Source: Sulfurospirillum halorespirans DSM 13726 (GTDB taxonomy: Bacteria > Campylobacterota > Campylobacteria > Campylobacterales > Sulfurospirillaceae). Taken from it: DNA of 64,000 bases. The notes beneath the pieces were generated by a model that was not told the DNA's origin, did not search any database, and saw only the letters and a program-made list of their open reading frames with translations. This document shows positions 59,150 through 63,981 of the stretch, one piece after another. Location: the NCBI RefSeq assembly GCF_001723605.1, contig NZ_CP017111.1, positions 1,922,001 through 1,986,000 of the forward strand, read 5' to 3'. A program made the position numbers and the translations under genes. Every line of letters starts with the position of its first letter. The first letter of the stretch is position 1.

Positions 59150-59183
59150 AAAAATAACAAAATTAAGCACATAGGTGGATTTT

Positions 59184-60056
59184 ATGAAAGTCGGACTCAT
59201 CCAACACGCCGTTGAAAGTACCAAAGAAAAAACCCTCGCCAAAACCGTTTCGCTCATCGAAAAAGCCGCCAAACAAGGCGCCGAGCTTGTCGTGCTGCAA
59301 GAGCTTCACCAAGACCGCTACTTCTGCATCAACGAAGATGTTGACTGTTTTGACCTTGCCTCTTCGTGGGAAGCTGACATCGCATTTTGGTCAGGCATCG
59401 CCAAAGCCAACACCGTCGTTTTAGTCACTTCACTCTTTGAAAAACGCTCCGCCGGACTCTACCACAACACCGCCGTCGTCTTTGAAAAAGATGGCACAGT
59501 CGCTGGAAAATACCGAAAAATGCACATCCCCGATGACCCAGGTTTTTACGAAAAATTCTACTTCACTCCGGGTGACATGGGCTACAACCCCATTCAAACC
59601 AGTGTCGGCAAATTAGGTCTCCTCGTCTGTTGGGATCAATGGTACCCAGAAGCGGCACGTTTGATGGCGCTCAAAGGGGCTGAAATGCTCATCTACCCCA
59701 CCGCCATCGGTTGGTTCGATGAAGACGCCGAAGATGAAAAAAAGCGCCAATGTGACGCATGGGAGACCATACAACGCGGTCACGCCGTAGCAAACGGACT
59801 TCCTGTCATCAGCGTAAACCGCATCGGCAAAGAAGCTGACAACCACGGTGTACTTGATGGCATCCGCTTCTGGGGCAACTCCTTTGTCGCAGGCCCACAA
59901 GGCGAAATAATCGTTCGCGCAAGCCATGACAAAGAAGAAGTACTCATCGTCGAAGTCGATCTTGAAAGAGGCGAACACGTCAGACGCATCTGGCCGTTTT
60001 TACGAGACCGCAGAATCGAAACGTATGGGGATTTGACGAAACGATTTATCGACTAA
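59184..60056 (+). CDS. aguB: N-carbamoylputrescine amidase
   Basis: This 290-residue nitrilase-superfamily enzyme hydrolyses N-carbamoylputrescine to putrescine, completing agmatine use. The catalytic Glu is in VVLQELHQDRYF near residue 41, Lys in GKYRKMHIPDDPGFYEKFYF near 115, and Cys in LLVCWDQWYPEAARLM near 153. GWFDEDA and RGHAVANGLPVISVNRIG are also AguB-like. The ATG at 59184 follows AGGTGG. Two tandem palindromes follow the stop codon. Confidence 0.93.
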   Translation: MKVGLIQHAVESTKEKTLAKTVSLIEKAAKQGAELVVLQELHQDRYFCINEDVDCFDLASSWEADIAFWSGIAKANTVVLVTSLFEKRSAGLYHNTAVVFEKDGTVAGKYRKMHIPDDPGFYEKFYFTPGDMGYNPIQTSVGKLGLLVCWDQWYPEAARLMALKGAEMLIYPTAIGWFDEDAEDEKKRQCDAWETIQRGHAVANGLPVISVNRIGKEADNHGVLDGIRFWGNSFVAGPQGEIIVRASHDKEEVLIVEVDLERGEHVRRIWPFLRDRRIETYGDLTKRFID

Positions 60057-60062
60057 AACCTT

Positions 60063-60096
60063 TTTACATGTAAAGATTCAAAGCTTTACATGTAAA
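60063..60096. terminator. Tandem exact palindromes forming a 13-bp stem
   Basis: Exact copies at 60063 and 60085 (22 bp apart) pair as TTTACATGTAAAG / CTTTACATGTAAA around an 8-nt loop. They follow aguB by six bases and precede the ATPase gene by 14, so they may both end aguB and shape the leader of the defence pair. Confidence 0.75.
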
Positions 60097-60110
60097 CCTT
60101 TGGAGTGAGT

Positions 60111-61721
60111 ATGGAACTGGTTTATTTGTGGGTGGAAGAGTATAAAAACATTAAAAATCAAGGGTTTAATTTTTCACCTAGGTTTACATGTGAGTTTTTT
60201 CCTGAATATGATGAAAATAATAAACTAAAAGATAATTGTGAACTAAAAATCACACCAAAAGAGCATGTCAATATTTTCCCTACAAATATTAATGTCACAG
60301 CGATTGTTGGGGCAAATGGAGCTGGGAAGAGTAGTATTTTAGAGTTCTTAAATGAAATATTTCGTATTGAATATAATAAAAATAGAAATTTGATTGTAGA
60401 TTACGATCATGTTCTTAATTTTTGCCTAGCTTTTAAAATAAAAAATACAATCTATGCAATTAAATCAATTGATAATCACGATACTAATTCATTTGAAGAG
60501 AGTGAAAAAATTGAAAATATTTTAGAGTATTACCATTACTCAAATGATAAATCAAACATGAGTAACCAAATATTATTGGATGATATTTCAATAGCCAAAA
60601 TGCTGATATATGATTACTCGAAAAATAAAAATTTCAAATTATCCTCATTTATGTATATACCGAATCAAATATCAATACAACTATGTGATTTTGAAAAAAA
60701 ATTTGAAAAATTAATTTCAAATGACAAACTCTACCCAATGTCTAAACACGAATCAGATTTTGTTTATATAGAAAATATGAGCAAAGAAGTACATCATCAA
60801 ACAGATTTTTTTCATTCAATAACAGATATATATCATCAATTTTTAATATTGAAATTGTTAGAAAAATCTGAGGAAACAGTTGCTTTTTACTTATCAAAAA
60901 GTGATATTACAGAACAGTTAAGCGATAGTGAGTTACTTAGTGAAGAAGATTTTAAAAAATATTTTGAGTGTTATAAAGATTTACTACATGCCCCTAAAAG
61001 AGATATTGATACGTTAAACTCCGTAGAAAAAGAAATATATATTGACAAATATAGCGATTTTTTTGAATTTGATTTTTTTGATGAGAAAAATAGACAATAC
61101 AGTAGTTTAAGTCATGGTGAAAAAACACTTTTTGGACAATTACTTAATATTTATTACCATTCGGAAAAATCAAAAAATGACAATTTTCTCTTTTTATTTG
61201 ACGAACCTGAAATAGCGTTGCATCCAAATTGGCAAAAAAGCTATATTCAAGAATTATCCACATTGACTCAAAAACTAGAAAAAAATTATCATTTTATTTT
61301 TGCAAGCCATTCCCCATTTTTGCTTTCCGACATCCCTAAAGAAAACGTTATTTTCCTAGAAAAAGATAAGGATGGTAGGTCCAAAAATGTCACTAAAGAA
61401 ACAAAAATTGAAACCTTTGGAGCTAATATCCACACCCTACTCTCTCATGGTTTTTTTATGAAAGACGGGCTTATAGGCGAATTTGCGAAAGAGAAAATCA
61501 ATAAAGCTATTACAATTCTAAATAAACAAGGCAAACTCAGTAAAAGTTCTCTTGCATATTGTGAACAAATCATTTCAATTATTGGCGAACCTATACTTAA
61601 ACGACAACTTCAAAGAATGCTTGATAGCAAAAGGCTTTACAAAATGGACGAGATAGATCGCTTAAAAGCTGATATTTCAGAGCTTCATCAAAAACTAAAA
61701 AAATTAGAAAATAGAAAATGA
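60111..61721 (+). CDS. AAA15/OLD-like ABC-fold ATPase of a Septu-like defence pair
   Basis: This 536-residue ATPase has Walker A VGANGAGKSS near residue 67, an ABC-type signature LSHGEKTLFGQLL near 328, Walker B FLFDEPEIALHPN near 360 and H-loop FASHSPFLLSD near 397, separated by a long helical insert. It is the SMC/RecF-like AAA_21 class. It overlaps by four bases an HNH nuclease gene, the PtuA-PtuB (Septu) gene order. The ATG at 60111 follows GGAG; an upstream GTG at 60105 is less likely. The gene is far more AT-rich than all neighbours, strong evidence of acquisition. It has only a degenerate palindrome (TTTACATGTGAG, 60182). Confidence 0.82.
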   Translation: MELVYLWVEEYKNIKNQGFNFSPRFTCEFFPEYDENNKLKDNCELKITPKEHVNIFPTNINVTAIVGANGAGKSSILEFLNEIFRIEYNKNRNLIVDYDHVLNFCLAFKIKNTIYAIKSIDNHDTNSFEESEKIENILEYYHYSNDKSNMSNQILLDDISIAKMLIYDYSKNKNFKLSSFMYIPNQISIQLCDFEKKFEKLISNDKLYPMSKHESDFVYIENMSKEVHHQTDFFHSITDIYHQFLILKLLEKSEETVAFYLSKSDITEQLSDSELLSEEDFKKYFECYKDLLHAPKRDIDTLNSVEKEIYIDKYSDFFEFDFFDEKNRQYSSLSHGEKTLFGQLLNIYYHSEKSKNDNFLFLFDEPEIALHPNWQKSYIQELSTLTQKLEKNYHFIFASHSPFLLSDIPKENVIFLEKDKDGRSKNVTKETKIETFGANIHTLLSHGFFMKDGLIGEFAKEKINKAITILNKQGKLSKSSLAYCEQIISIIGEPILKRQLQRMLDSKRLYKMDEIDRLKADISELHQKLKKLENRK

Positions 61722-62560
61722 TAAAAATTGCTACGCCACATTTGGAAGAGCTGGCACACGAGCATTATGAAGAGTTAAAATCAAAAATAAAATTTCCTAC
61801 ATGTAAATATGCTCTTGAAGAAGTCATCACCGCAAAACCTGAAAAACTGCATGAAATTGCGATGCACTACAAAGGCGACACTTCATTTGATTTTATGAAA
61901 AATGAATACAAAAAATTTACCGTTAAAACAGATAATGATACATACGATGCCTATACCTTAGCCCAATCTCTTAACGTCACCGTTTGCCCCTATTGCAACC
62001 GAAATTATACGTTTACGGTTCGCTCCAAAAACGGCTCAATACGTCCGCAATTTGATCATTTTTACGATAAAGTGATGTATCCGATCTTGGCATTGTCGTT
62101 TTACAATCTTATACCCAGTTGCCCTACATGTAATGCAAGCATAAAAGGACGCAAGCAATTTTCGCTTACGACGCATGTGCATCCTTACATTGAAGGTTTC
62201 GATGATAAGGCACGTTTTGCTTTACATGTAAAGGACAGCTCGTTTTATTACGATGAACAAGGGTTTGATTTAAAACTGGGCTCAAACGATGCCAAAGCGC
62301 AAAAAAACATCGAAGATTTTGCGTTGGAAGAGATTTATAAAAACCACAAAGACATCGTCTTAGAACTTATCCAAAAATCGGTTATGTACAATGAAAGCTA
62401 CATCGAAGAGCTGATGCAAAACTACGAGGGAACACTCTTTAAAAATGAAGAAGATTTACTGCGTTTGATCTTTGGCGGTTACATCAGCGATGAAGACTTG
62501 GGCAAGCGCCCTCTTTCCAAACTTACCAAAGACATTTTAGAGCAGTTGGAGATTATCTAA
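61718..62560 (+). CDS. HNH endonuclease partner (PtuB-like)
   Basis: This 280-residue protein has a zinc-bound HNH fold: CPYCNRNYTF (Cys-90, Cys-93), QFDHFYDK (His-114, catalytic region), SFYNLIPSCPTCN (Cys-135, Cys-138). That CxxC-DH-N-CxxC order is typical of McrA/PtuB-type nucleases. The start overlaps the ATPase stop (ATGA). Unlike the ATPase gene, its base composition resembles the host, and it has one exact palindrome (62221) and two partial ones (61797, 62109), the last encoding the second zinc knuckle. The two genes probably form one nuclease complex that acts on invading DNA. Confidence 0.8.
   Translation: MIKIATPHLEELAHEHYEELKSKIKFPTCKYALEEVITAKPEKLHEIAMHYKGDTSFDFMKNEYKKFTVKTDNDTYDAYTLAQSLNVTVCPYCNRNYTFTVRSKNGSIRPQFDHFYDKVMYPILALSFYNLIPSCPTCNASIKGRKQFSLTTHVHPYIEGFDDKARFALHVKDSSFYYDEQGFDLKLGSNDAKAQKNIEDFALEEIYKNHKDIVLELIQKSVMYNESYIEELMQNYEGTLFKNEEDLLRLIFGGYISDEDLGKRPLSKLTKDILEQLEII
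62221..62232. repeat. TTTACATGTAAA palindrome copy
   Basis: Exact copy inside the HNH nuclease gene, read ALHVKD. Confidence 0.95.
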
Positions 62561-62563
62561 CTC

Positions 62564-62575
62564 TTTACATGTAAA
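62564..62575. repeat. TTTACATGTAAA palindrome copy after the nuclease gene
   Basis: Exact copy (CTTTACATGTAAAG) four bases past the HNH stop codon; with 60063/60085 it brackets the defence pair. Confidence 0.95.
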
Positions 62576-62612
62576 GCATTTCACTTTCGCATGGTGAAAA
62601 ATAAACCACTCT

Positions 62613-62640
62613 ATCGTTATGTATTAATAAATACTACGAT
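62613..62640. promoter_or_regulatory. ModE-like inverted repeat
   Basis: ATCGTTATGTATT and AATACTACGAT form an imperfect inverted repeat, reminiscent of the ModE consensus (TCGnTATATA arms). It lies 33 bases before the small membrane protein gene and 330 bases before the molbindin gene. Confidence 0.35.
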
Positions 62641-62672
62641 ATACTCTCCTTAATTCTTTGAGGAGGTTTACG

Positions 62673-62870
62673 ATGAGTGAGGTTTATTCTATATTTTTAT
62701 CGGCTGTTTTTTCAAGTTTTCTTGTGACGATGTGTATTATTGCGGTTCTTGGCTCATTGTATTACCTGACGTTTAAGTGTTTTGCTTCGTATATCTCGTT
62801 TGATAAAATCGCCCAAAAACGCGCTCAAAATTTGAAAAATGCCTCTGCTAAAGAGAATTCTATACTCTAA
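62673..62870 (+). CDS. Small single- or double-span membrane protein
   Basis: About 65 residues starting MSEVYSIFLSAVFSSFLV at 62673 with an excellent AGGAGG seven bases upstream. One long or two short hydrophobic segments span residues ~5-45, followed by a basic tail (KIAQKRAQNLKNASAKENS). No family recognised. The strong ribosome binding site and intact hydrophobic pattern argue that it is a gene. It lies between the defence pair and the molbindin gene and may be coregulated with the latter. Confidence 0.6.
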   Translation: MSEVYSIFLSAVFSSFLVTMCIIAVLGSLYYLTFKCFASYISFDKIAQKRAQNLKNASAKENSIL

Positions 62871-62889
62871 AAAATACCACCGTTGCCAA

Positions 62890-62947
62890 TTGACATTACA
62901 TAACACTCTGTGAGATAATTTTATTAACCATCAAGGTAAACCTTGAT
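62890..62947 (+). promoter_or_regulatory. Promoter and leader hairpin of the molbindin gene
   Basis: TTGACA (62890) and GATAAT (62914) are separated by 18 bases, the clearest sigma-70 promoter in the window. A 7-bp hairpin ATCAAGG-TAAA-CCTTGAT follows at 62930-62947, near the start of transcription, and could be an operator or a 5' mRNA-stabilising stem. Confidence 0.6.
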
Positions 62948-62971
62948 AGATCAAACCCAAGGAAGTGTGTT

Positions 62972-63397
62972 ATGAAAATAAGTGCAAGAAATCAAATCGT
63001 TGGAAAAGTGTCTGAGATCAAAAATGGTCCTGTAAACAGTGAAGTTGTTGTTGCGACTGCAGGTGGCGATAAAATCGTTTCTGTCATTACCAATGGTGCG
63101 GTTGTATCACTTGGTTTAAAAGTTGGTTCTGAAGCGCTTTGTATCTTTAAAGCACAAAGTGTTCTTCTCGCAAAAGCGGACATCGCACTTGCGGTAAGTG
63201 CTCGCAATAAAATCAAAGGTACTATTTCTGAGATCAAAGATGGTGCCGTTAATTGTGAGGTTATTATCGCTACTGCTGGTGGTTTAACCGTAACAGCTAT
63301 CGTGACAGAAGATGCAAAAAAAGAGCTTTCCCTTGCAAAAGGCGACACTGTTTATGCCATCATCAAAGCTTCAAGCATTTTAGTAGGCGCAAACTAA
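62972..63397 (+). CDS. Molbindin-type protein with two TOBE/Mop domains
   Basis: This 141-residue cytoplasmic protein is two Mop (TOBE) domains in tandem. Each begins SARNxIxGxxSEIKxGxVNxEV (residues 4-25 and 73-94) and continues with VATAGG or IATAGG. Such proteins bind molybdate or tungstate for storage and buffering. A strong promoter and GGAAGTG ribosome binding site suggest high expression. It fits a genome rich in molybdoenzymes such as MsrP in this window. A one-mismatch palindrome (63400) follows the stop codon. Confidence 0.9.
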   Translation: MKISARNQIVGKVSEIKNGPVNSEVVVATAGGDKIVSVITNGAVVSLGLKVGSEALCIFKAQSVLLAKADIALAVSARNKIKGTISEIKDGAVNCEVIIATAGGLTVTAIVTEDAKKELSLAKGDTVYAIIKASSILVGAN

Positions 63398-63411
63398 GCC
63401 TTACATGTAAA

Positions 63412-63981
63412 CTATTTTTCGTAGGTTTTAAAGTACCACATCAGCGCGAACATCAAGCCTGATGTGGTCGCGATGCTCTCATCAAACATAAATTCAACGG
63501 TCTCTTCACGTTTGAGGTAGATCACTTCGATGTTTTCATTTTCGATGCCACCACCTTCATTGACCTTCATCGTATCATCCAAAATAGCGTAGTACAGCGT
63601 TTGTCTCCCACCTGCAAAGCCAACGGCGGTGTAAAAAGAGGAAATTTTTTGAAGTTTGTCAAGCGGCACATCATACCCTGTCTCTTCCAAGACCTCTTCT
63701 TTGGCGATTTCGATGAGGCTTTTGTCTTTATCGACGATGCCCGCACACAATTCAAATGTAAAACCGTCATGGTTTTTAACATAGATGGAAGGGCGAAACT
63801 GCTTGACAAAGACAAACGAGTCTAAATCTTTGTGGTAGAGCAAAATGGCGACGCTGTTGTGTGTATCGACGATGTCCCAACGCTTTTCAACGCTGTTGTG
63901 CAAATAGTACATACTTTTAGGTTTGATGTAGTCTGAATGCACGCACTCCTCGATTTTAAGCACCTCAATCGTATGTTTCAT
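63412..63981 (-). CDS. NUDIX hydrolase, nucleotide-sugar/ADP-ribose pyrophosphatase type
   Basis: This 189-residue protein has the N-terminal segment MYYLHNSVEKRWDIVDTHNSVAILLY and a Nudix box GIVDKDKSLIEIAKEEVLEETGYDV near residues 96-120 (GX5EX7REUXEEXGU with minor change at the first Glu region: DKDKSLIE). It resembles NUDT14/UDP-glucose and ADP-ribose pyrophosphatases (FVFVKQFRPSIY). It likely hydrolyses nucleotide sugars in the cytoplasm. It converges with the molbindin gene, separated by a palindrome copy. Its upstream region runs off the window. Confidence 0.85.
   Translation of the reverse strand: MKHTIEVLKIEECVHSDYIKPKSMYYLHNSVEKRWDIVDTHNSVAILLYHKDLDSFVFVKQFRPSIYVKNHDGFTFELCAGIVDKDKSLIEIAKEEVLEETGYDVPLDKLQKISSFYTAVGFAGGRQTLYYAILDDTMKVNEGGGIENENIEVIYLKREETVEFMFDESIATTSGLMFALMWYFKTYEK

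Follow-up and report, generated by a model that had tools for sequence, protein, structure and literature searches.

Evidence for repeated exchange of the ATPase-gene middle in a Septu-like (PDC-M62) candidate defence pair at a Sulfurospirillum hotspot

Among the closest described relatives of the locus treated here are pairs of the Septu type, in which the ABC-type ATPase PtuA is accompanied by the HNH nuclease PtuB. In a tested Septu system, defence requires the ATPase as well as the HNH activity, and residues H75 and N91 of PtuB are both essential (PMC13096335). The nucleic acid that is cleaved varies among representatives, being tRNA-Tyr in two cases (PMC13096335, PMC11555353) and, as reported in PMC11555353, nicked DNA for another PtuAB. 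PtuAB proteins are also found as effectors of the retrons Ec78 and Ec83, and the candidate system PDC-M62, whose library entry describes a gene pair only, has been classed under Septu in one survey (PMC11811056). A precedent of a different kind is the TRD exchange of HsdS in type I restriction, where a variable recognition module lies between conserved blocks and the partner subunits stay (PMC12707154).

The ATPase-HNH pair and its described relatives

The pair lies on the forward strand of the window, by which we mean the whole stretch that was analysed, 64,000 nucleotides of contig NZ_CP017111.1 from Sulfurospirillum halorespirans DSM 13726. The ATPase gene (60111..61721, 536 aa; PDC-M62A/PtuA-like by PADLOC, Pfam AAA_21 and predicted fold) starts with an ATG at 60111, with an alternative GTG 6 nt upstream at 60105, and shares 4 bp (ATGA) with the HNH nuclease gene (61718..62560, 280 aa; PDC-M62B/PtuB-like by PADLOC). 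The original prediction had these coordinates, the overlap, the GC contrast between the genes and the positions of a palindromic repeat all correct. It had also recognised a PtuA-PtuB layout, which holds for fold and catalytic residues and gives way at the level of profiles: the ATPase matches PDC-M62A with an E-value of 1.3e-101 and PtuA1 with only 4.8e-24, and the nuclease matches PDC-M62B with 1.3e-86 and PtuB much more weakly, with 2.4e-8 (the Pfam families matched by the ATPase are AAA_21 and AAA_15). With both genes adjacent, overlapping and matching its models, the pair is nearer to PDC-M62 than to Septu PtuAB proper, from which it is also set apart by a hypervariable centre that lies between conserved ends (MELVYLW... 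and KRPLSKL...). The exchange of that centre goes beyond the gene pair described in the PDC-M62 library.

The model predicted for the ATPase has middling confidence (pLDDT 75.7, lower in the centre), and PtuA structures rank first among its matches, with Z-scores of 16-17 over residues 58-517, followed by SMC/Rad50 heads with 12-13, which points to a PtuA-type ABC ATPase fold. The nuclease model has high confidence (pLDDT 92.5), yet Foldseek gave just one convincing solved relative for it, from the effector complex of retron Ec78 (one chain, E 2e-3). Residues C90, C93, H114, N130, C135, C138 and N139 are invariant in 57 HNH homologues, and the two that correspond to the H and N of the nuclease motif, H114 and N130, are separated by 16 residues, exactly as H75 and N91 are in the tested PtuB (PMC13096335). 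Although the nearest solved structures for both proteins are retron Ec78/Ec83 PtuAB effectors, the pair differs from these systems in that no reverse transcriptase was found among the neighbouring ORFs (FeoA/FeoB, AguB, a small ORF, a TOBE protein and NUDIX), and the matches to the Retron I-A (Ec78) NCBIfam models NF041760 and NF041761 stay below their equivalog cut-offs (48.7 of 500 bits and 16 of 150 bits). Judged on its family and predicted folds, the pair is probably to be counted as a Septu-like (PDC-M62) candidate phage-defence system.

The chromosomal site and its resident sequences

In the window genome (G000), the pair sits between aguB (59175..60056, forward strand) and a NUDIX gene (63412-63981), and many congeners have these two borders, with other genes or nothing at all between them. 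Pairs of this family occupy the gap in eleven Sulfurospirillum genomes; three congeners (G012, G020, G030) have it empty, and others carry an HSDR_N protein, an AbiEii pair, a cytosine methylase with a GHKL ATPase, or unknown cargo. By its contents, the aguB-NUDIX gap (60056 to 63412) is a defence hotspot in the genus, the occupancy in relatives being one of the checks that had been proposed for this locus. Traces of turnover are seen in several genomes. In G027, the gap holds an unrelated 478-aa ORF with no Pfam match (L082 5490-6926), and after it only the final 34 residues of the HNH protein remain (L082 6940-7041, 94% identical), a remnant that looks like the scar of a replacement. In G016 the ATPase gene carries a frameshift (L069 6049-7541), and in G013 it is split by a Mutator-type transposase (L076 5714-8832); the nuclease gene is intact in both. 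A small ORF between the pair and the right border (62673-62870, 65 residues) is apparently membrane-spanning, has no Pfam match and is conserved next to the molbindin (TOBE) gene in other members of the genus.

The two genes differ sharply in their conservation at this site. The nuclease has 86-92% amino-acid identity between the window and six sister genomes (seven of the eleven), and in the ATPase centre (about residues 76-400) identity among the same loci drops to 9-28%, near the level of unrelated sequences and with 30-50% gaps in many alignment windows. The two ends of the ATPase are again alike: residues 1-40 reach 92-97% in amino acids and 90-94% in nucleotides, and the C-terminal tail 83-93% in five of the six intact loci. 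The remaining four of the eleven genomes have a nuclease with a different body that keeps the C-terminal end (...SKLTKDILEQLEII); in the window this conserved C-terminus, KRPLSKLTKDILEQLEII, occupies 62504..62557 on the forward strand. Across 61 loci, all 24 pairs with a nuclease identity of at least 75% have centres at 9-28%, and nuclease identity is uncorrelated with that of the centre (rho 0.02) and correlated with that of the ATPase tail (rho 0.65). The nuclease is resident in a relative sense only, since its synonymous differences per site (pS; 0.26-0.46 among the seven same-site loci, about 0.36 among distant sisters) are lower than those of feoB and NUDIX, often 0.7-0.8, and it must therefore have moved among species itself. 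Third-position identity drops to background inside the last 20 nuclease codons, and the recombination tracts that include the centres may also have taken up the conserved flanks and homogenised them.

Base composition had been read as a mark of recent import of the ATPase gene. Its GC content, judged against flanks and relatives, is indeed low at 0.28, against 0.38 for the HNH gene and 0.40-0.52 upstream, and at third codon positions it is a mosaic, with the AT-richness concentrated mid-gene (GC3 0.26 at the N-end, 0.18 in the centre, 0.22 and 0.24 in the later parts, 0.41 in the HNH gene and 0.55 in aguB). Nevertheless, the ATPase alleles of all sisters are AT-rich (GC 0.27-0.30), and the composition therefore does not date the window copy, so that the contrast between the genes was borne out and its reading as a sign of recency was rejected.

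The same had been deduced from the absence in the ATPase gene of exact copies of TTTACATGTAAA, a 12-base palindrome with 785 exact copies in the 3.03-Mb genome against 1 for a reversed control. Since 0.42 copies are expected per 1.6 kb, and none with a probability of 0.66, a palindrome-free ATPase is uninformative for a single gene. Exact copies stand at 60063, 60085, 62221 and 62564, and partial ones at 60183 and 61796 (2 mismatches each) and 62125 (3 mismatches). Those upstream of the ATPase (60063..60096, at -48/-26) are kept in nearly all sister loci, the one near HNH codon 168 is present in 7/7 loci with this nuclease type, and for the one 3' of the HNH gene (62564..62575) several sister loci have a counterpart close to where the nuclease ends; the upstream copies and that near codon 168 mark resident DNA. 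The eleven sister ATPases contain three exact copies, all at codon 25 and none in the centre, which is suggestive only as a sign of import. Recombination between these repeats, as originally proposed, was rejected, since they hold conserved positions in resident DNA and none of the breakpoints, which lie in conserved coding blocks, coincides with them. As a genomic feature, TTTACATGTAAA resembles HIP1, many copies holding their position between species. Four pairs at 10-base spacing exist in the genome, including that at 60063-60096, with extra inverted symmetry between the paired copies that could form a hairpin or terminator. A literature search found no description of TTTACATGTAAA in these bacteria, a weak indication given its incomplete coverage.

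Exchange and breakpoints within the ATPase gene

The ATPase can be divided into parts with different histories. The N-terminal end (60111..60344, forward strand, as are the following parts) contains the Walker A motif (VGANGAGKSS, residues 66-75) and a MELVYLW..YKNI..QGFNFS stretch that is near-invariant across the order. The hypervariable centre proper, residues 81-325 (60351..61085), is followed by the signature/Walker B/H-loop part, residues 326-450 (61086..61460; LSHGEK at 333-338, DEPE at 364-367, SHSPF at 399-403), by the FGANIHTLLSHGFFMKDGL block, residues 436-454 (61416..61472), and by a helical C-terminal tail (61473..61718). The window's centre has a near match in L032, a metagenome-assembled genome of a Campylobacterales lineage with the pair at a different chromosomal site: identity is 86% in the centre and 97% in residues 326-450, a part that moved together with the centre in this allele. 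Synonymous differences between both loci fall from 0.76 at the N-end and 0.51 in the P-loop block to 0.19 in the centre and 0.14 in residues 326-450, and rise again to 0.80 in the tail and 0.63 in the nuclease. At the sites that discriminate L032 from G017, the window matches L032 by 486 to 27 over residues 81-445 and G017 by 137 to 20 in the nuclease. Identity between the window and L032 hardly follows the conservation of the family (rho 0.07, the lowest of 2145 pairs, whose median is 0.84).

Other pairs of loci share centres as well, such as G021 (S. cavolei UCH003) and G230a, with 70% in the centre and 33% in the nuclease, and G390 and G370, with 70% and 37%. In AU tests, the grouping of the six sisters as one clade was rejected on the centre alignment (p = 4e-7), and each of four centre-sharing pairs was rejected on the nuclease alignment (0.006, 1e-35, 8e-6 and 6e-37), values that are descriptive because these pairs were picked after their centres had been seen. 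Congruent trees, which would have spoken against separate histories of the two genes, were thus not obtained. Since centres are shared across loci, fast evolution or lost constraint is not the sole cause of their divergence, and these comparisons show that the middle of the ATPase gene has been repeatedly replaced by recombination, with the ends and the nuclease staying or changing separately. In substance, this agrees with the original idea of an exchanged ATPase beside a nuclease that stayed, with the difference that the unit is the gene middle, about residues 76 to 400-450, and not the whole gene. As in HsdS, a variable module between conserved blocks is exchanged independently of its partner, although here it lies inside an ATPase beside a nuclease, and the system has no methyltransferase.

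In most sister pairs, change-points fall at residues 73-77, directly after Walker A, and near residues 396-400, at the H-loop, positions that in part reflect conservation, since both motifs are strongly constrained; the centre-sharing pairs and the synonymous sites avoid that problem. In them, similarity stops at about residues 450-460 in both G000/L032 and G390/G370, and similarity between G000 and G016 starts at about 61478 (residue 456), with 87-100% nucleotide identity from there on, as compared to 53-60% in amino acids between the window's tail and that of the other sisters. These joints fall in or just after FGANIHTLLSHGFFMKDGL, a recurrent switch point in G000/L032, G000/G016, G021/G230 and L181. 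The breakpoints are thereby placed, by sequence comparison, in conserved coding blocks: after Walker A, and in the H-loop and the FGANIHTLLSHGFF block (FxANIHxLLxHxFF). The site retains the first ~75 codons and in most cases the last ~100 as well, and the window's ATPase has at least three sources, namely a resident N-end, an L032-type centre and a G016-type tail.

A second set of loci comes from viral contigs (IMG/VR), which carry 22 relatives of the nuclease, many of them beside long ATPases; among annotated phage records, the ATPase has one weak match. The pair on L181 matches PDC-M62A and B at 7e-223 and 2e-193, and short similarity with the Bacillus phages phi105 and rho14 makes a Bacillus-type host likely. 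Left of codon 559 of its ATPase, the informative sites side with L175 (593 of 609, against 16 for L172); right of it, through the nuclease, they side with L172 (397 of 429, against 32 for L175). The change falls in AANIHSLLAHSFFMEEG, which corresponds to the Sulfurospirillum joint (FxANIHxLLxHxFF). L181 is a clean recombinant, and this joint thus recurs in a second set of loci, of Bacillus-like type.

The exchanged centre as a candidate sensor

The best overall explanation, with a probability of roughly 0.7, is a PDC-M62 defence pair in a hotspot, with a mosaic ATPase whose swapped centre retargets the system. ATPases of the Rad50/SMC type carry partner- and substrate-facing insertions between Walker A and the signature motif, the position taken by the centre, which is, by its location and variability, most likely the module that senses the trigger. 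An ATPase oligomer would sense infection through this variable centre, and its conserved ends would couple sensing to the HNH nuclease and, together with the nuclease C-terminus, keep both proteins matched. The nuclease would then cleave nucleic acid, whether DNA of the phage or tRNA of the host, both activities having been reported among PtuAB systems. A swap of the centre would alter recognition and retain the matched nuclease, as in the TRD exchange of HsdS, with the conserved blocks serving recombination as short homology and, within the genus, the conserved flanks serving it too.

Two other readings concern the exchange itself. A replacement of the complete ATPase gene, with the nuclease staying, would account for the jump in similarity between the window and most sisters exactly at the HNH start codon, 61718, where the import seems to reach the gene end; it is improbable, given that the gene start is still sister-like in its nucleotides, that the common tail is kept by five other sisters, and that the window's own tail is of the G016 and not of the L032 type. 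Even less credit is due to rapid divergence of the centre through point mutations that diversifying selection favours, without any exchange. Centres at 12-25% identity with many gaps do resemble an arms-race region, but those shared across genera differ at pS 0.14-0.19 beside ends and nucleases near saturation, L181 is a clean recombinant, and G000 and G017 would need near-saturated replacement next to flanks with pS 0.2-0.4. Local fast evolution inside a given centre type (residues 220-239) is possible, as in L177 and L179, whose differences are concentrated in the centre (68% identity there, 93-97% in the other parts).

The remaining alternatives accept the mosaic and dispute its meaning. 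If the centre were not a sensor and varied to escape phage inhibitors or to prevent mis-assembly between alleles, a variable surface would be favoured likewise, and inhibitor escape is the main alternative reason for its variability. This is a minority reading, the most serious of the four, and it is weakened by the position of the centre at the insertion point of Rad50/SMC-type ATPases and by AriA, of the same ATPase class, for which a complex with a phage protein has been solved (8v45, AriA-Ocr). That the pair is not a defence system and works, for instance, in DNA repair or as a toxin-antitoxin-like module is rather unlikely: HNH and ATPase pairs do have other uses, but the profiles that it matches best belong to a candidate defence family, it shares its fold and catalytic spacing with PtuAB, the gap holds other defence-type cargo or nothing in congeners, and relatives are found on viral contigs. 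The reading of a retargeted defence pair can be extended, with about even chances, to the whole PDC-M62/Septu-like family as an HsdS-like repertoire, in which a nuclease chassis at a fixed locus would receive interchangeable sensor cassettes at fixed joints (Walker A and the FxANIHxLLxHxFF blocks), probably in at least two phyla and with one phage trigger per cassette.

The family, the fold and HsdS-style modular specificity were already known. A literature search of incomplete coverage turned up no account of an exchanged ATPase centre in Septu or PDC-M62, which is weak evidence that intragenic exchange of the centre with recurrent joints is apparently new. For the question of how ATPase-nuclease defence systems sense infection, the natural exchange outlines a candidate PtuA-like sensor to about 250-320 residues, besides indicating which parts of the ATPase tend to stay matched to the nuclease. 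With natural joints and an allele series (seven Sulfurospirillum loci with one nuclease), sensing by the ATPase becomes directly testable. Finally, the finding suggests a route by which defence specificity may evolve without moving whole systems.
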